From Acetilactobacillus jinshanensis (lineage in GTDB: Bacteria > Bacillota > Bacilli > Lactobacillales > Lactobacillaceae), in the NCBI RefSeq assembly GCF_004359375.1, contig NZ_CP034726.1:1116001-1180000 (forward strand): a stretch of DNA of 64,000 nt. The letters run 5' to 3'. Numbering within the stretch: the stretch's first letter is position 1; every line of letters starts with the position of its first letter. Of the stretch, positions 1-9,900 are shown one piece after another. The notes below the pieces were generated by a model. That model was given only the letters and a program-made list of their open reading frames with translations, ran no database searches and had not been told where the DNA came from. The position numbers and the translations under genes are program-made.

Positions 1-1085
1 CTCGTGACCTAGCTTGGTGGCTTCATCAACCAGGTGACCTTAAGTCACAGTTTCAGAAGTTCTTTAATTACTTCAATCATCCGGAACCGGTACTGGTTAA
101 AAACGCTAAGGGTAAAACTAGCTTTTCAGTTTATCCTTTCCGCCACCAGGAAGTCATCAAGAAGTTTCCTGATTTAAGTCAACTATTGGACTATTATTAT
201 CAGACCCGGGCTCAACGTGACCGAGTTCGTGAAAAAGGTGCCGTTCTGATTAAAGTCGCCCGGAACGAATTAAAGAAAAATCAACGCAAACAAAAGAAAT
301 TAAAGAAAACGTACTACTCCAGTAAACACGCCAACGAATATAAGCATAAAGGTGAAATCTTAACTACTTATATGTATAAGGTTAAAACTGGGATGAGCAA
401 CGTTAAATTACCGGATTTTTACCATCCCGGTAAAACCGTTGACATTAAATTGTCTTACGACCGCACCCCATCCGAAAATGCTCAGTGGTACTTCAAGCAA
501 TACCGTAAAAAGCAGCATGCCGGTGTCTACGCTAAGCAACAGACTAAAGAAGCTAAAGTTAACGTTAACTATTTTCAAAATATCCTGGACCAGATCCAAC
601 TTTCTAAACCCAGTGATTTAGACGACATTAAACTAGAACTTCAGCAGGAAGGCTACCTTAAAGATCACCAAAATAATCAAAAAGGGCATTCTAAGAAACG
701 TCGCCATAAGGTCAGCAAACCTGAACGCTTCATTTCTGATGATGGCACCCCAATCTACGTTGGTAAAAACAACCTTCAAAATGATCATTTAACTAAATCA
801 GCTGATAAACGTGACACCTGGATGCACACCAAACAAATTCATGGTTCGCACGTCATTGTTCAATCGATCAAACCCAGTCAAAAAACGTTAACGCAAGCTG
901 CATTACTAGCTGCGTACTTCTCTAAAGGTCGCGAATCATCCAACGTTCCCGTTGACTATACCTTAGTTAAACACGTTAAAAAGCCAAACGGTGGTAAACC
1001 AGGCTTCGTAATCTATCGTCATCAACACACCCTATTTGTAACGCCGAAAGCATCCGTCATTAAACACTTACGGCAGAATAAATAA
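1..1085 (+). CDS. rqcH: RqcH / NFACT-family ribosome quality control protein, C-terminal part
   Basis: The gene enters from the left edge; the frame is open from base 3 and ends at TAA 1083-1085. RqcH (Rqc2/NEMF homologue, formerly FbpA) binds obstructed 50S subunits and directs C-terminal alanine tailing of stalled chains. Visible here are the end of the NFACT-N region (Leu-Ser-Gln-Leu-Leu-Asp-Tyr-Tyr-Tyr near 175-200), a basic coiled-coil segment (about 220-640), and the C-terminal NFACT-R domain with 'DGTPIYVGKNNLQND', the 'DTWMHTKQIHGSHVIV' core and a PxDYT motif. It converges on carB across a shared terminator. The ATG at 186 is internal to the family and is not the start. Identification is firm; the N-terminal part lies outside the window. 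Confidence 0.93.
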   Translation, partial: RDLAWWLHQPGDLKSQFQKFFNYFNHPEPVLVKNAKGKTSFSVYPFRHQEVIKKFPDLSQLLDYYYQTRAQRDRVREKGAVLIKVARNELKKNQRKQKKLKKTYYSSKHANEYKHKGEILTTYMYKVKTGMSNVKLPDFYHPGKTVDIKLSYDRTPSENAQWYFKQYRKKQHAGVYAKQQTKEAKVNVNYFQNILDQIQLSKPSDLDDIKLELQQEGYLKDHQNNQKGHSKKRRHKVSKPERFISDDGTPIYVGKNNLQNDHLTKSADKRDTWMHTKQIHGSHVIVQSIKPSQKTLTQAALLAAYFSKGRESSNVPVDYTLVKHVKKPNGGKPGFVIYRHQHTLFVTPKASVIKHLRQNK

Positions 1086-1106: not shown

Positions 1107-1143
1107 AAATCCTGTTTTGATTATCAATATCAAAACGGGATTT
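1107..1143. terminator. Bidirectional intrinsic terminator between rqcH and carB
   Basis: A 15-bp imperfect stem (1107-1121 with 1129-1143) of the form AAATCCTGTTTTGAT / ATCAAAACGGGATTT has A/T-rich flanks on both sides. It lies between two convergent genes and can serve both. Confidence 0.85.
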
Positions 1144-1156
1144 TAGTTTAGTTCAA

Positions 1157-3661
1157 TTAAAGTAACGTTAATCTTGCACCCACGGCATGATTATTATTAA
1201 ACTTCGGCTTTAGATGAGGCTTAACAACCGACAATTGTTTAAACGGAAACGTATCGGTCATTTTAGCAGGCAAAACTTTAAGTCGTTTGAAGATGCTGAC
1301 AAACTGAGCAGGCGTTAGTTGATGAGTATATAACTGAATCAAAGCTCTGATCCAGTTAACGTTAGAAATTTGATTTAAGAAGACGGTTTCAGTGGTTCGC
1401 AACGGTCGAATTCCTACTAACGAATAACCATTTGGACCGGTCTTAAATAAGACCTGGACCAAGCCCTTCCAATTCGATTGATTAATGACGTGGATCGCCT
1501 GATGTTTTAAGGTATGGAGCAATTTGTCATCGTTAATCTGAAACGGCTTGATCTCGTTGACGTATTTAAGTTCCGAATGGAACCGGCTAATTAATTTCAT
1601 CGGTGTAATCAACTGTTGCTGGTGCGTTGAAACGAAGAAGTCTAAGCCGACACTAGCTCGTTTCGGGATCGTGACACCGGTCTTCTGGTCAGGCGGTAAA
1701 ATAATGGCTTGATCTGGGAAACGCCGGGTCAACTGGCGAAGTAAAAAGTGACGGTTCCCTGGAACCACGATCAACTGGGGCTTTTCCAGATGAATAATAT
1801 CGGTGATGTTACCAAGCTGAACGGGCTCGATATATTGCTTATCACTAATGCGTGGGATTAAGGAAACAGCATTTGGATTGTTATTAATAATGATTGTCTT
1901 GAAGCCGAGTTTATGCATCTGAATTAGAGTTTCAGCGGTGTAATAATCAGCCGATGTATTTGGTCCTAACTGATTACCGCCTCGACCGATGACCAATGCC
2001 GACCGATCTGACAACTGAGCAGATTCATTCTCGTGCTCATAGCTACTGTAATAAGTCCGGGTGTGCTGAATAAATTCACCGGCCGACGGTTCAATCTGTT
2101 TATAGGTGGGTCTAGTTTCGCCCTTCTGGTCAGCATCCCGAATCTGAGCTAGCGACTGATTCCAGGTTTCAGCCAACATCCCGTCACCAAAGCCACTTTC
2201 GTGAGCTCGTTTGATGGTGTCGATATTGCCCGGCTTATTTAGAATGTTCTTTTCAACGGCCAAGAGTCGTTTTAACTTATAAAAGTAAAACGGCTGGATC
2301 TTAGTTAATTCCGCTAGGTCATGAACCGGATAATGACGACGTAACGCTTCAATCAAAACTAAGATTCGACTGGCTTGCGGGTGAATCAACTGATCAATTA
2401 ATTCATCATCCGACATGTTACGCCGGTTTGGTAGAACATCTTTTGGACTGAACTGTGAACTCCGTAAGGCTTTCAGTAATGCTTCTTCGATCGTCCGACC
2501 AACCCCAATTGATGAGCCAACGGACTGCATTAAACTTCCTAAATGCTGATCGGAAGTCTTGATGTCTTTGAATTGCCATAACGGAATCTTAACTAAAACG
2601 TGATCTAATGATGGTTCCAAGCACTTTGTCTTCGGATCATACTCGTTCGATAACTTAAGCGTCGAAAAATTCTGTCCCATTAGAAAATCCGTATAGACTT
2701 CTAACAACGGATACTCAGAAGCTTTACATGATAAAGCAACGGCACGGGTATAATACGGAACGACTTTGGTAATGAAATAGTAGTTTCCACTGCGGTTAAA
2801 TGCGAACTGAACCCCACAGAATCCGTTAATATCTAGTGTGTCCATAATCTTTAACGTTGCGTTGCGTAACCGCTGGTATTGCGGATCAGTTAAGGTTTGA
2901 ATCGGTGTGATGGTTAATGAGTCACCGGGATGAATCCCGAAAGCATCGATGTCTTCAATACTGTTAATAATCATCCGGGTTCCCTGGTCATCTCTAACAC
3001 CGATCATACTGAATTCCTGGTATCCGGTGATATCAGGTTCGATGATACATTTATTAATTTCGGAATCATTAAGGTACTTTTTAAGGTTAACCCTTAACTT
3101 TTCGGGATCTTTACAGATTCGACGGCGAATTCGATAGCGTGGTGAGAGCGATTTGATCATGACGGGATAGCCAATTTTATCAGCAATTAATTCAGCATCC
3201 TGAAATGATGATACAATCGTTGAAGTGATCGTGGGTTCATTACAGTCATGAACCACTTCGCCAAAACGGAGCGGATTACTAACTAATTTAAGGGCTTCAT
3301 CAGAAATTCCCACGATCTTAACGTGATATTTGGTTAAAACGCCACGTGCTAACAAGAACTGGGTGATTTTAACGGCTCGTTTTCCACCTAACGTAGGTAA
3401 GATTGAATCCGGACGGGCTTTTTTAATGGCCTGGATAACGTTATGAATCGTGATTTTATTAATAAAGACCTGAGACTTATCTAATAAACTTAAGGTTACT
3501 GAAAATGCGTTGTCATCAATTACGAATGGTGTAACGTGATGCTTAATTAACTGGGTAATAATCTGAAAACTCGCCGCATCGGATTCATTTTCGTTACCGA
3601 TGGACGAGGGGCCACTACCAATGATTAAAATTTTCGAATTAGCAGCATTCATTGGTGTCAT
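1157..3661 (-). CDS. carB: Degenerate carbamoyl-phosphate synthase large-subunit homologue (CarB-like pseudoenzyme)
   Basis: Recognisable CarB of 834 residues against about 1060 usually. The first half keeps the fold landmarks: 'ILIIGSGP' at 11-18, 'PDSILPTLGG' near 84-93, 'HPGDSLTITPIQTLTD' near 244-259 and 'VKIPLWQF' near 357. However, the glycine-rich ATP loop is replaced by 'SLSPRYRIRRRIC' (171-183), and the metal-binding Glu and Asn of the VIEVNPR motif are Lys299 and Val301. The second half begins at 'LVIGRGGNQLGPN' (about 556), lacks most of its ATP-grasp B subdomain, and has Gly750 and Arg752 at the same Glu/Asn positions. No C-terminal MGS-like regulatory domain is apparent. It overlaps the end of carA by 4 bp. 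From family knowledge this should not phosphorylate bicarbonate or carbamate. An alternative is a slowly decaying gene not yet interrupted. Confidence 0.85.
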   Translation of the reverse strand: MTPMNAANSKILIIGSGPSSIGNENESDAASFQIITQLIKHHVTPFVIDDNAFSVTLSLLDKSQVFINKITIHNVIQAIKKARPDSILPTLGGKRAVKITQFLLARGVLTKYHVKIVGISDEALKLVSNPLRFGEVVHDCNEPTITSTIVSSFQDAELIADKIGYPVMIKSLSPRYRIRRRICKDPEKLRVNLKKYLNDSEINKCIIEPDITGYQEFSMIGVRDDQGTRMIINSIEDIDAFGIHPGDSLTITPIQTLTDPQYQRLRNATLKIMDTLDINGFCGVQFAFNRSGNYYFITKVVPYYTRAVALSCKASEYPLLEVYTDFLMGQNFSTLKLSNEYDPKTKCLEPSLDHVLVKIPLWQFKDIKTSDQHLGSLMQSVGSSIGVGRTIEEALLKALRSSQFSPKDVLPNRRNMSDDELIDQLIHPQASRILVLIEALRRHYPVHDLAELTKIQPFYFYKLKRLLAVEKNILNKPGNIDTIKRAHESGFGDGMLAETWNQSLAQIRDADQKGETRPTYKQIEPSAGEFIQHTRTYYSSYEHENESAQLSDRSALVIGRGGNQLGPNTSADYYTAETLIQMHKLGFKTIIINNNPNAVSLIPRISDKQYIEPVQLGNITDIIHLEKPQLIVVPGNRHFLLRQLTRRFPDQAIILPPDQKTGVTIPKRASVGLDFFVSTHQQQLITPMKLISRFHSELKYVNEIKPFQINDDKLLHTLKHQAIHVINQSNWKGLVQVLFKTGPNGYSLVGIRPLRTTETVFLNQISNVNWIRALIQLYTHQLTPAQFVSIFKRLKVLPAKMTDTFPFKQLSVVKPHLKPKFNNNHAVGARLTLL

Positions 3662-4740
3662 CTCTTACTTCTGAATGAATGAACGTTTTCAAGAAATTCA
3701 TCGTATAATTCGGAACTGTCTTTCGGTCCAGGACCACCATTCGGATTAAACTGAACGGAGAATGCGGGATAATCCTGATGATGAAGGCCCTGAATGGAAT
3801 GATTAATCAAATCAATGTAAGTTACGAATAACGGGGTGTGTCTTAACGACAACGTTGCGATTTGGTAACCCTGATTCTGGGAAACGTGGACCACCTGACC
3901 AGTAATAATTCGTTTAACGGGATGATTACTACCAAAATATCCAGCTGGCATGCGACAGGTCTTCGCCCCGTTAGCTCGAGCAAATAACTCATGGCCAAGA
4001 CCAATTGCAAATAACGGAATTCTGGCCTGGACTTTCTGAATCATCTTTAATACTGATCTAGGAACGTTTTCAGGTGAACCAGGTCCGGTTGATAGAACCA
4101 CTCCGTCAGGATCTAAATTAAAAATCTGTTGCGCAGTAGTATCCCAAGGAACCACGGTGACGTTACATTGTCGCTGAGTTAACGCACCTAATAAATTACT
4201 CTTTAAACCAAAGTCAACGACCAGAATATTATACCCAGTCCCTGGATCTTGGTAAGCTTTCGGTGTTGCAACTTGGGCGACCTGCTGATGGTTAATAACG
4301 GTCGCATGCAGTTGGTCAAAGGCATGTTTATCATTAACGTCAACGATACTGGCCATCATTGAACCGTGCTTCTGAATGTGTTTGGTGATTTCACGAGTAT
4401 CTAAGCCACAGATCCCAGGAATGTTGTTTTGTTTCATAAATTCATCCAGGGATAAACGGTGGTTTCGGTTAGTGGAAATATTAGCGTATTCACGAACGAT
4501 GATCCCTTTGGTATGGGGCTGAATCGACTCGTAGCTTTTATCATTAATTCCGGTGTTACCAACTGACGGTTGAGTAAAAACAATAATTTGGCCATAATAA
4601 GCCGGGTTAGTCATTGATTCTTGATAACCTAGCATGTTTGAATTAATGGCCAATTCACCTGTTGTCGTGGCGTCTGAGCCAAAGCCGTAGCCACGATAAG
4701 AAGTCCCGTCAGCTAAAATCAGGTATCGATAGCCCATCAT
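3658..4740 (-). CDS. carA: Degenerate carbamoyl-phosphate synthase small-subunit homologue (CarA-like, no amidotransferase triad)
   Basis: CarA normally hydrolyses glutamine and passes ammonia to CarB. The N-terminal CPSase domain is well kept ('LILADGTSYRGYGFG', 'MLGYQES', 'GICGLDTREIT'), and the class I amidotransferase domain follows. In the nucleophile elbow the expected GICLGHQ reads AIGLGHE, so the catalytic Cys is Gly (GGT codon at 4000-4002, one base from TGT). The expected FHPE reads FNPN, so the catalytic His and Glu are both Asn. The 360-residue length is normal. The start is the ATG at 4740 behind AGGTGA; an upstream GTG at 4749 is also in frame. It sits 14 bp after pyrR and overlaps carB. 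Family identity is clear; glutaminase activity is not expected. Confidence 0.88.
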   Translation of the reverse strand: MMGYRYLILADGTSYRGYGFGSDATTTGELAINSNMLGYQESMTNPAYYGQIIVFTQPSVGNTGINDKSYESIQPHTKGIIVREYANISTNRNHRLSLDEFMKQNNIPGICGLDTREITKHIQKHGSMMASIVDVNDKHAFDQLHATVINHQQVAQVATPKAYQDPGTGYNILVVDFGLKSNLLGALTQRQCNVTVVPWDTTAQQIFNLDPDGVVLSTGPGSPENVPRSVLKMIQKVQARIPLFAIGLGHELFARANGAKTCRMPAGYFGSNHPVKRIITGQVVHVSQNQGYQIATLSLRHTPLFVTYIDLINHSIQGLHHQDYPAFSVQFNPNGGPGPKDSSELYDEFLENVHSFRSKR

Positions 4741-4754
4741 AACGATCACCTACA

Positions 4755-5288
4755 TTAATGAATGATTTCAACGGCATCCCGATGATCCTTTTCCATTACG
4801 GAAACTCGAATCCGTTCTTTTCTGGAACTAGGAATGTTTTTACCAACGAAGTCAGCACGGATTGGTAATTCACGATGGCCACGATCAACCAGAACGGCTA
4901 AACGAACGGTTCGGGGCCGGCCCAATTCGGATAAGGCACTTAAGGCCGCTTTAACGGTTCGGCCGGTATATAAAACGTCATCAACTAAAACGACGTTCTT
5001 CTTTTCGATGGAAACCGACTTATTATCAGGGACGACGTTAGGATCCTTATGGGAGCTATCGTGATCAATATCGTCACGATATTTAGTGACGTCAAGGCTG
5101 GTAACCGGAACTTTAGCCTTTTCGAGCCGATCAAGACGCTTGGCGATTCGCTTAGCTAAGTAAACACCGCGAGTCTTGATACCAATTATCATTAGGTCTT
5201 TAATCCCTTTATTACGTTCGATAATTTCGTACGTAATTCGAGTTAAAGCTCGTTGCATAGCCATTTTATCCATAATTAATTTCCGCAT
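4755..5288 (-). CDS. pyrR: PyrR: pyrimidine operon attenuation regulator / uracil phosphoribosyltransferase
   Basis: PyrR is a 177-residue type I phosphoribosyltransferase-fold protein that binds pyr mRNA when charged with UMP. The PRPP loop '[14 protein letters not shown]' (residues about 100-112), the '[22 protein letters not shown]' block and the N-terminal '[16 protein letters not shown]' are all intact. The start ATG is preceded by GGAGGTAG. The upstream gap to rluD is only 36 bp and holds no PyrR-type attenuator. Downstream are only carA-like and carB-like; no pyrB, pyrC, pyrD, pyrE, pyrF or pyrP is present. An intact regulator beside apparently dead CarAB suggests that its RNA targets, if any, lie elsewhere (inference). 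Confidence 0.95.
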
Positions 5289-5324: not shown

Positions 5325-6248
5325 TTAATAATTCTGCTTACCACAATACTTCTGTCGTCTTAACTTGTCTAATACCTGTCGAAAAATTACTGGCATTTGC
5401 ACAGTAAAAATTAGTAACTTTCCGGTTCGGGGATGATGAAAGCCCAATTTCCAAGCGTGAAGAAACTGACCATGGCCCTTGATCGTTTTGCGAGGTCCAT
5501 ATAACGGGTCGCCAACTAACGGATGACCAATGTACTTCATATGAACTCGGATTTGGTGAGTCCGACCAGTTTCTAGCCGGCAAGCAATCAACGTGTACTT
5601 ACCGAATCGTTCCAGAACTTTATAATGCGTTACGGCATGCCGACCGTCACTAACGACGGCCTGTTTTTTACGATTCCGTCTAGACCGTCCCAGTGGCGCA
5701 TCAACGGTGCCACCCTTTTCTTTAATGTTACCGTGCACTAGGGCAATATATTCACGGACGTTGGTCTTATGACGAAGCTGATCAGATAACGAATAATGAG
5801 CAAGATTGTTTTTAGCCACCATTAATAAACCTGACGTATCTTTATCGATTCGGTGAACGATTCCAGGTCGATACGTTCCGTTAATGTTGGATAGTGGTGT
5901 GTGATATAGTAACGCGTTAACTAAGGTATGATCCGGATGTCCTGGAGCGGGATGGACGACCATCCCCTGTGGCTTATTAACCACCAAGACGTCGCGATCT
6001 TCATAGATAATGTCTAACGGGATCTTTTCGGGAACCAGACTTAGTTTTTTAGGTGCCGGAATCTTCACGGTAATTTTGTCATGAGCTTTAACCTTATACT
6101 TCGGTTTGGTCAACTTACCGTTGACCCAAACTAGGTGCTTGTCGATTAACTTCTTAATTCGGGATCGGCTCAACTTACTGATCATTTCGGAAACGACTTT
6201 ATCAATTCGGCCCCGTTGAGTTGTAATTACTAAGTGCTTAATCGTCAT
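5325..6248 (-). CDS. rluD: RluD-family 23S rRNA pseudouridine synthase
   Basis: A 307-residue RluA/RluD-family enzyme isomerising uridines in rRNA. An N-terminal S4-like RNA-binding domain (residues about 12-75, 'RIDKVVSEMISKLSRSRIKKLI') precedes the synthase domain. The catalytic motif 'HRIDKDTSGLLMVAKN' carries the Asp, and 'CRLETGRTHQIRVHM' and 'GDPLYG' follow. The ATG at 6248 immediately follows the lspA stop, so the two are translationally coupled, which is the usual Lactobacillales arrangement. Which rRNA positions it modifies cannot be told from the sequence. Confidence 0.93.
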   Translation of the reverse strand: MTIKHLVITTQRGRIDKVVSEMISKLSRSRIKKLIDKHLVWVNGKLTKPKYKVKAHDKITVKIPAPKKLSLVPEKIPLDIIYEDRDVLVVNKPQGMVVHPAPGHPDHTLVNALLYHTPLSNINGTYRPGIVHRIDKDTSGLLMVAKNNLAHYSLSDQLRHKTNVREYIALVHGNIKEKGGTVDAPLGRSRRNRKKQAVVSDGRHAVTHYKVLERFGKYTLIACRLETGRTHQIRVHMKYIGHPLVGDPLYGPRKTIKGHGQFLHAWKLGFHHPRTGKLLIFTVQMPVIFRQVLDKLRRQKYCGKQNY

Positions 6249-6710
6249 TTAATCACGTTTCCTTAAGGGTTTATTAAAGCCAATCAGGATCATTAACAGG
6301 ATTACACCAACCGTTAATGCTGAATCGGCAACGTTAAAGATCGGAAAGTTGATAAAATCGGTCTGGATCATGTCAATTACGTAACCATGAACGATTCGGC
6401 TGATTAAATTACCGCAAGCGCCGGCGATAAACAACGTAATGGCCGTTTCGTAACCAAAGTCGTAACGGCATTTCCATAGATAATAGCCTGCGATAGCAAT
6501 TGCAACAATCCCGATGATTACGAAGAACCCCCGACTACCGGTGAACATACTCCATGCGGCACCGGTATTTTTAACGTTCGTAATTGATAAAAAATCTGGA
6601 ATAAATTCATGTTCACTTAAAGTTTTGATATTATTTACGATCCAGAATTTTGAAAACTGATCAGCACCTAAAATCGCAATAAATAAAATGATTGCGTAGT
6701 AGATCCACAT
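6249..6710 (-). CDS. lspA: Lipoprotein signal peptidase (signal peptidase II)
   Basis: LspA, 153 residues, cleaves lipoprotein signal peptides before the lipid-modified Cys. Four membrane segments are visible. Conserved blocks are 'ADQFSKFWIV' (about 16-25), 'VKNTGAAWSMF', 'GNLISRIVHGYVIDMI' and 'FPIFNVADSALTVG'. The two catalytic-dyad Asp residues (in VIDM and NVADS) are present. The additional well-conserved Asp of the GNxIDR motif is Ser here (GNLISR), which is unusual. The stop abuts the rluD start, and the gene starts 3 bp after the ebsA-like stop. Confidence 0.95.
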   Translation of the reverse strand: MWIYYAIILFIAILGADQFSKFWIVNNIKTLSEHEFIPDFLSITNVKNTGAAWSMFTGSRGFFVIIGIVAIAIAGYYLWKCRYDFGYETAITLFIAGACGNLISRIVHGYVIDMIQTDFINFPIFNVADSALTVGVILLMILIGFNKPLRKRD

Positions 6711-9503: not shown

Positions 9504-9900
9504 ATAAATTCCTATAAGCCACGTTTCGTACTCACATGAAATGTCAGGTCAAATCATATGAGCAGTAATCATCTATCTATCGCATCATAAATATGATGCG
9601 GTCCCCACGCTTGGTTCATTTTCCGTGCGTGAAGCTCCTCTACCGAAAATTTGAGTTCTCCGCTCGAGGGGTTTACCGCGTTCCATTCGATTGGATTTCT
9701 CCAATGTTTCGTCACTGTGGCACTTTTCAGGAGTATTAAAGCATAGCAGAACCTTAGCTTGTTTCTCCGCCGTAGTCACTAATAAAAGTGATTCACCGGT
9801 TTATTTTTTCACCGATCACGAACACTACAAGCATCTCAGCTTGTGCGAGAGTGGACTTTCCTCACCCAGCAAAAGCTAGGCGCGATTACTCAGAATTTAT
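9504..9900 (-). ncRNA. rnpB: RNase P RNA, bacterial class B
   Basis: About 397 nt on the minus strand, matching the size of the Bacillus-type RNA. Terminal helix P1 pairs 9893-9900 with 9504-9511. The hallmark 'GAGGAAAGTCCACTCTCGC' is at about 9850-9870, followed by 'AAGCTGAGATGCTTGTAGTG', the J11/12-type 'GGCGGAGAAACAAGCTAAGG', and the 3' 'GAGTACGAAACGTGGCTTAT' segment of the conserved core. It lies between gpsB and the THUMP methyltransferase, the standard Firmicutes locus. Open frames overlapping it are not genes. Confidence 0.95.

Follow-up and report, generated by a model that had tools for sequence, protein, structure and literature searches.

A catalytically dead carbamoyl-phosphate synthase pair kept, usually beside pyrR, in many Lactobacillaceae, and its possible role as a partner of PyrR

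Introduction

Why would a bacterium that has lost pyrimidine synthesis keep two long, unbroken genes for a carbamoyl-phosphate synthase (CPS) whose catalytic residues are gone? The question is raised by a 64,000-nucleotide stretch of the Acetilactobacillus jinshanensis genome (contig NZ_CP034726.1 of GCF_004359375.1), here called the window (G000:C1:1116001-1180000 in a single-contig genome of 1,616,430 bases). Homologues of carA and carB, which we call carA' and carB', lie there directly downstream of pyrR. A first-pass annotation had described every recognisable catalytic site of the pair as replaced, and had read the long open frames as a sign either of a retained non-catalytic role (scaffold, regulator or nucleotide sensor) or of very recent relaxation. 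We find that the pair belongs to a widespread family of dead CPS homologues held under strong purifying selection. Tentatively, we read it as a pseudoenzyme that acts as a non-catalytic partner of PyrR.

Loss of the catalytic sites

The genes and altered sites in question are as follows (window coordinates).

1157..3661, minus strand: carB', open frame of 834 aa with an ATG start, CPS large-subunit-like pseudoenzyme
3658..4749, minus strand: carA', open frame of 363 aa from GTG 4749, CPS small-subunit-like pseudoenzyme
4755..5288, minus strand: pyrR, 177 aa, intact (NCBIfam NF003548, 245.4 bits against a cut-off of 218)
3116..3154, minus strand: replaced Gly-rich ATP loop of the first ATP-grasp half, carB' residues 170-182, SLSPRYRIRRRIC (alignment to E. 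coli CarB 164-184)
2765..2767, minus strand: Lys codon in carB' at the position of metal ligand E299
4000..4002, minus strand: Gly codon in carA' at the position of catalytic Cys269
3739..3750, minus strand: FNPN in carA' where FHPE is expected (His353, Glu355)

The carA' and carB' frames overlap by 4 nt (ATGA) and are both free of stops, as the first-pass annotation had noted, along with an intact PyrR. It had ended the pair at 4740, an in-frame ATG that is an equally plausible start (360 aa), although the open frame reaches GTG 4749; a further in-frame ATG lies at 4737. The end of pyrR is therefore 5 nt (GTG) or 14 nt (ATG 4740) from the start of carA'. Searches used positions 3661-4731 (357 aa, without a start codon) as the carA' query. 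Pfam places the pair in the CPS family far beyond chance (CPSase_sm_chain 5.6e-45, CPSase_L_D1 5.5e-38): the carA' product matches CPSase_sm_chain and GATase, and the carB' product matches CPSase_L_D1, L_D2 and L_D3 and scores 482.7 bits on TIGR01369 against a cut-off of 1027.

Residues were called by alignment to E. coli CarA and CarB, and 37 dead rows were compared with 60 canonical rows. The 37 are distinct loci, the repeats L065 (of L037) and L073 (of L043) having been dropped, and three canonical-counted rows with Gly269 were retained in the counts. The alignments bear out each loss that had been named at the window. CarA' carries C269G, H353N, E355N, Q273E and S47A, and is the only row with Asn at both 353 and 355. 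In CarB', SLSPRYRIRRRIC replaces the Gly loop, accompanied by E299K, N301V, R303Y, E841G and N843R; 8 residues stand where E. coli 677-760 has 84 (the second B subdomain), and nothing aligns to E. coli 936-1073, so that the MGS-like allosteric domain is absent. Only the word "every" went too far, since the first ATP-grasp half retains E215, G241, H243, Q285 and R306, with R169 changed to Lys.

The same losses recur throughout the family. Position 269 of CarA is Gly in 37 of 37 dead rows and Cys in 57 of 60 canonical rows; His353 has become Phe (30), Ser (6) or Asn (1), and Glu355 is Asp (35), Asn (1) or Glu (1). Both Cys and His of the glutaminase triad on which EC 6.3.5.5 depends are thus gone from all 37. 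Gln273 is Glu in 36 of 37, Ser47 is Ile, Val or Ala, and Asn311 is replaced in 35 of 37. In CarB, E299 is Lys (31) or Arg (6) in the dead rows versus Glu in 60 of 60 canonical rows, and N301 survives in 4 of 37. The glycines at 175, 176, 178, 179 and 180 are present in all 60 canonical rows; among the dead rows G179 is never retained and is Arg in 35 of 37, while G175, G176 and N301 vary freely. Further along, G721 and G722 of the second Gly loop are gaps in every dead row, E841 is retained in one and N843 in none. The dead pair has neither the two ATP-grasp sites nor the MGS domain of a glutamine-hydrolysing CPS (EC 6.3.5.5), nor the two intact ATP-grasp sites of an ammonia-dependent one. Catalytic residues are retained in nearly all of the 60 canonical rows, and the canonical copies from G023, G032 and G035, genomes that also carry the dead pair, keep them.

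The fold appears to have outlasted the chemistry. An AlphaFold2 model of CarB' built from 21 sequences (predicted local distance difference test score, pLDDT, 84.9; predicted template modelling score, pTM, 0.87) matches residues 1-921 of E. coli CPS 1a9x_A with Z 43.8 at 2.9 A over 810 aligned residues, so that the CPS scaffold looks kept. By homology of both subunits and by the predicted fold of CarB 1-921, the pair belongs to the CPS superfamily; the absence of other families from the Foldseek or VIA list excludes none of them. The CarA' model is only moderate (pLDDT 76.4, pTM 0.56), so no interface is drawn from it.

Distribution, descent and selection

A search of 60 relatives returned a CarB of ~800-900 aa in many genera, often in a genome that encodes a canonical CarB of ~1060 aa as well. 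Across 201 Lactobacillaceae genomes, themselves a sample of a larger group, the short CarB occurs in at least 108, a lower bound, from 21 of 40 genera. It is present in at least 108 of the 110 genomes of those 21 genera, and is absent among the matches listed for the other 91. The CarA partner was checked at the fetched loci. Named members among the best 80 loci include Secundilactobacillus, Levilactobacillus, Lactiplantibacillus plantarum, Limosilactobacillus, Furfurilactobacillus, Periweissella, Pediococcus acidilactici, Weissella and Fructobacillus.

Simple decay, by the first-pass annotation's own account, should have left sister genes riddled with stops or a ratio of nonsynonymous to synonymous substitution rates (dN/dS) near 1. 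Instead, 107 of the 108 listed short CarB frames, spread over the 21 genera, read through without a stop; the one frame with a stop is from G196, a draft of ~350 contigs and 87% completeness. We computed dN/dS by the NG86 (Nei-Gojobori) method for within-genus pairs with dS < 2.5, which excluded many saturated pairs. The medians for CarA' were 0.035 (21/21 pairs, genus g24), 0.016 (20/28, g16), 0.018 (2/10, g14) and 0.042 (1/3, g21), and those for CarB' were 0.061 (20/21, g24), 0.022 (7/28, g16), 0.024 (1/10, g14) and 0.039 (1/1, g33); no pair was usable for CarA' in g33 or for CarB' in g21. The largest single value was 0.213 (CarB', g24). PyrR medians (0.013-0.084) were comparable to the ranges for CarA' (0.016-0.042) and CarB' (0.022-0.061). 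These values come from five genera other than that of the window, which is represented by one genome.

The dead CarA rows form one clade (SH-aLRT, the Shimodaira-Hasegawa-like approximate likelihood ratio test, 99 in a quick tree). They have also acquired invariants of their own: Asp, His, Ala, Asp, Gln and Ala at E. coli positions 139, 142, 143, 145, 146 and 149, a linker cluster that is 100% conserved in dead rows and < 60% conserved in canonical ones (contig-end fragments L118, L137 and L141 left out). The CarA' model is poorest at 136-164, the site of this cluster. Judged from alignments and trees, the catalytic loss is ancestral and constrained. Decay of the family is ruled out by the open frames, the low dN/dS and the single clade; very recent relaxation, the second option of the first-pass annotation, fails at the family level on the same three results and on the new invariants, all of which speak for its first option, a retained non-catalytic role. 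Scaffold and regulator remain among the roles it proposed, and nucleotide sensor is the weakest because the ATP-site residues are lost. Within the window lineage some extra local relaxation is possible: the end branch of its CarA' is 0.57 long versus 0.26-0.28 in G023, G035 and G032, and Asn at both 353 and 355 is peculiar to it, while the PyrR branch of the window is 0.34 versus 0.14-0.34.

Retention without a CPS

The pair also persists where the pyrimidine pathway is missing. As first reported, pyrB, pyrC, pyrD, pyrE and pyrF are absent: the whole window genome holds no match above cut-off to any of them. The search for a second, intact carAB that the first-pass annotation had recommended returned, besides carB', only two weak TIGR01369 matches (39.6 and 27.8 bits). 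In 24 of the 108 listed genomes, from 12 genera, the dead CarB is the sole CarB homologue at E <= 1e-20, 7 of 8 g16 genomes among them; drafts could hide a copy. G015, G020 and G024 likewise have no match above cut-off to any of pyrBCDEF, and G013 is missing only pyrB and pyrC.

We searched for PyrR RNA sites with Rfam RF00515 (gathering score 54). The window genome has one ahead of a major facilitator superfamily (MFS) transporter (57.8 bits) and a second, doubtful one (40 bits). In G013 (54.9 and 50.5 bits), G015 (54.7 and 44.7 bits) and G024 (57.4 bits), three genomes without a canonical CarB, such sites precede nucleobase permeases or lie close to them. The MFS transporter behind the 57.8-bit site (L189:2434-3835, G000:C1:870933 onward) is nearest to an aromatic acid/H+ symport model, below its cut-off, and is possibly a pyrimidine-precursor importer.

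Linkage to pyrR

The surroundings of the pair in the window comprise the following.

5325..6248, minus strand: rluD-like pseudouridine synthase, upstream neighbour (Pfam PseudoU_synth_2 and S4)
6249..6710, minus strand: lspA, signal peptidase II, upstream neighbour (Pfam Peptidase_A8)
3..1085, plus strand: NFACT-type gene, convergent and cut by the window edge (Pfam NFACT_N and NFACT-R_1 on 186-1082)
1107..1143, plus strand: terminator-like stem of 15 pairs between the NFACT gene and carB'
9510-9897, minus strand: RNase P class B RNA (Rfam)

RNase P is the sole Rfam match in the window, so no PyrR site precedes the window pyrR at gathering score. Terminator-like sites are as common in the window as in shuffles (9 vs 8.5), and a promoter scan found sites rarer than in shuffles (16 vs 23).

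The typical locus, labelled by Pfam, reads rluD-pyrR-carA'-carB', often with lspA before it and a convergent NFACT gene after it. A RluD match lies upstream in 36 of 37 loci and a LspA match in 27 of 37. The linkage to pyrR is stable: pyrR adjoins the pair in 30 of the 37 loci, in the order pyrR-carA'-carB', and 23-60 nt separate it from the pair in the 15 named loci with this adjacency. PyrR (E <= 1e-25) occurs in all 108 genomes with a listed short CarB, and the nine genomes without PyrR have no short CarB among the matches listed.

Evolutionary distances point the same way for CarB'. Over 29 loci the raw correlation between CarB' and PyrR was 0.80. After removing RluD it was 0.605, with 0.542 for CarA'-CarB', and after removing both RluD and NFACT (12 loci) it was 0.825. 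The fast row L040 was left out of most of these subsets, including the 12-locus one. Null pairs after RluD ranged from 0.24 to 0.84. The CarB'-PyrR signal is present in every subset, but unrelated genes also give a signal, and co-evolution of the two proteins is suggestive on these sequence distances.

Lactiplantibacillus plantarum connects the locus to a known phenotype. Strain EGD-AQ4 has two high-scoring PyrR proteins (66% identity) and one weak match (21.6 bits). One of the two heads the pyr operon with carAB, in which pyrF, pyrD, pyrC and pyrE were identified by profile and pyrB by position; the other sits 33 nt upstream of carA'B' and is by elimination PyrR2. Assigning pyrR2 to lp_2371 is wrong, as lp_2371 is pyrP. 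A 2006 abstract on PyrR2 reportedly describes a deltapyrR2 strain that needs high CO2, or pyrimidines and arginine. It reportedly also names the operon pyrR1BCAa1Ab1DFE, which hints that its authors knew of a second pyrAaAb pair. The PyrR tree does not resolve the carA'B'-linked PyrRs as one clade (3 changes), which leaves room for a single origin; it places the PyrR of the L. plantarum pyr operon together with the Paucilactobacillus and Limosilactobacillus pontis proteins (96).

Divergent pairs and related observations

Seven more divergent loci (G003, G008, G009, G022, G027, G034 and G039) fall outside the 37 and the 108. Degenerate pairs adjoin pyrR in G003, G008, G034 and G009; CarB is 643 aa in G022, full-length without the ATP loop in G027, and 579 aa in G039, which belongs to another family. 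CarA has Gly269 in 7 of 7, but CarB retains E299 in 5 of 7. In the CarA tree, which has several long branches here, six of these rows adjoin the dead clade and G039 groups with CarA of the Streptococcus type (support 84), a position that suggests its dead CarA arose separately.

Several observations stand apart. In G039, from another family of the order, pyrR, a 317-aa frame, carA (Cys to Gly) and the 579-aa carB lie in a row. The CarB of G027, 1067 aa with a lost ATP loop, sits beside a Gly269 CarA in a genome without an aspartate transcarbamoylase match. G039, G047 and G054 do have an aspartate transcarbamoylase above cut-off, yet a full-length CarB was not found in them. Finally, L086 (Bacillus piscicola), L112 (Allobacillus halotolerans) and L134 (a Rikenellaceae metagenome-assembled genome) have a CarA with Cys269 changed to Gly and His353 lost, yet a full CarB with intact motifs; their CPS are candidates for ammonia-dependent enzymes.

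Discussion

We propose that carA'B' is a pseudoenzyme CPS that acts as a non-catalytic partner of PyrR, a reading about which our belief and doubt are nearly balanced. In one ancestral lineage a Lactobacillales CPS would have been stripped of its glutaminase, its two ATP sites and its allosteric domain, and its descendants would since have been kept as a folded non-catalytic complex. CarA'B' would form a CPS-like heterodimer and bind PyrR, probably through CarB', and this binding would alter the hold of PyrR on the RNA attenuators of pyrimidine genes. In the window organism such a circuit would control uptake only, because pyrimidine synthesis has been lost there. The locus suggests a metabolic enzyme turned into a regulatory part. 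Sequence analysis shows the family, its residue losses, the selection on it, its linkage to pyrR and its retention without a CPS, and predicts its fold; the CarA'-CarB' complex, the contact with PyrR, the effect on attenuation and any ligand are inferred.

Several results weigh against this proposal. Seven of the 37 loci (five Limosilactobacillus rows, G005 and G002) have no pyrR beside the pair, and they form one clade in the CarA tree; the Limosilactobacillus pontis PyrR, the only one from these loci in the PyrR tree, groups with the pyr-operon type. A dedicated PyrR2 is therefore not required. Co-occurrence with PyrR is weak evidence because PyrR is found in 192 of 201 genomes, 84 of them without a short CarB among the matches listed; moreover, seven of the nine PyrR-less genomes come from one genus and four are drafts < 88% complete. 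RluD fits CarB' as well as PyrR does (raw 0.81), CarA'-PyrR is weak after RluD (0.254 over 29 loci) and weaker after RluD and NFACT (0.117), and unrelated pairs also score, with PyrR-NFACT at 0.836 (12 loci) and CarA'-LspA at 0.625 (20 loci) after RluD. G020 retains the pair, and no PyrR RNA site was found there at E <= 0.001. The loss of R303, E299 and N301 from the old sites disfavours bicarbonate or ATP sensing at those positions; with Ser47, Gln273 and Asn311 also replaced in nearly all dead rows, sensing of bicarbonate, glutamine or ATP at the old sites is disfavoured generally.

The alternative that survives best, unlikely but to be reckoned with, is that the non-catalytic complex serves a purpose outside PyrR, one linked for example to RluD, to NFACT or to some other cell function, and that its place beside pyrR is a relic of the ancestral pyr cluster. 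It would account for the pair staying at rluD in the seven loci that lack an adjacent pyrR, for CarA' correlating with LspA and NFACT as it does with PyrR, and CarB' with RluD as with PyrR, and for an lspA-rluD-pyrR arrangement near carAB in Enterococcus and Streptococcus loci too. It sits less easily with the CarB'-PyrR correlation that persists once RluD and NFACT are both removed, and with the order pyrR-carA'-carB' kept in most loci.

We think it improbable that the pair has gained a new catalytic activity on its old scaffold. Near-invariant Gly269, Glu273, Arg179, Lys/Arg299 and Tyr303 in the old sites are what such an activity might leave, but both nucleotide sites are without loops and metal ligands, and G175, G176 and N301 drift freely. 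A shade less probable again is a paralogue that serves as regulator or decoy, entering mixed complexes with the active CPS and adjusting its activity. The predicted fold and oligomerisation domain are retained, and many genomes also hold a canonical CarB; against this, the 24 listed genomes without one include most of g16, where the dead CarB is under strong selection, and the window genome itself. Retention without a CPS thus disfavours regulation of the active enzyme as the main role. Simple decay of a redundant CPS is scarcely credible: it would fit the absent catalytic residues, the two absent domains, the loss of the pathway from the window genome and a CarA' branch there ~2x those of three near relatives, but for the family it is contradicted by the open frames, by dN/dS values well under 1 in five genera besides that of the window and by the invariant replacements across 37 loci. 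An impaired but working ammonia-dependent CPS, like CPS I with its lost glutaminase Cys, is just as hard to credit, for although loss of Cys269 alone would give that type of enzyme, the B subdomain is missing from the second ATP-grasp half, and the first is without its loop and its Glu/Asn ligands.

At least 21 genera of lactic acid bacteria, some of them with fermentation species, would thus retain a pseudoenzyme derived from CPS. PyrR2 of L. plantarum is reported as an inorganic-carbon regulator of pyr (PMC3582564). Because the PyrR linked to the pair there is by elimination this PyrR2, CarA'B' becomes the first candidate for the missing inorganic-carbon input, and a testable one. CO2 sensing by CarA'B' is speculative, and we think it doubtful that PyrR2 and the dead CPS join in a complex for RNA attenuation in which inorganic carbon is read, either directly or via carbamoyl phosphate from the active CPS, and the reading passed to PyrR. 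If true, a dead copy of an enzyme would monitor how much of that enzyme's substrate is available. Polarity on carA'B' may explain part of the published deltapyrR2 phenotype. Annotation would be affected too: because the glutaminase-dead CarA' exceeds the cut-offs of TIGR01368 and NF009475, both NCBIfam equivalogs, pipelines would annotate it as a subunit of an active glutamine-hydrolysing CPS, and models of arginine or pyrimidine synthesis may credit these genomes with a missing enzyme.

A description of the dead pair, or of any CPS-derived pseudoenzyme, was not found in the open-licence PMC literature (titles, abstract starts and passages), and the pair is best placed by comparison with four known systems. 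It shares with the PyrR/PyrR2 regulon of L. plantarum the location of carA'B' 33 nt downstream of a PyrR outside the pyr operon, whereas the passages of PMC3582564 and PMC5712122 on that regulon do not mention a dead CPS pair. With E. coli CarA/CarB (PDB 1a9x) it shares the two-gene order, the domain order to CarB residue 921 and the predicted fold, but lacks the glutaminase triad, the first ATP loop and metal ligands, the second B subdomain and the MGS domain. CPS I, the ammonia enzyme, has likewise lost the catalytic Cys of its small domain but retains both ATP-grasp halves, both of which the dead pair has lost. In kind it resembles regulatory pseudoenzymes in general, with the fold conserved, the chemistry lost and purifying selection strong.

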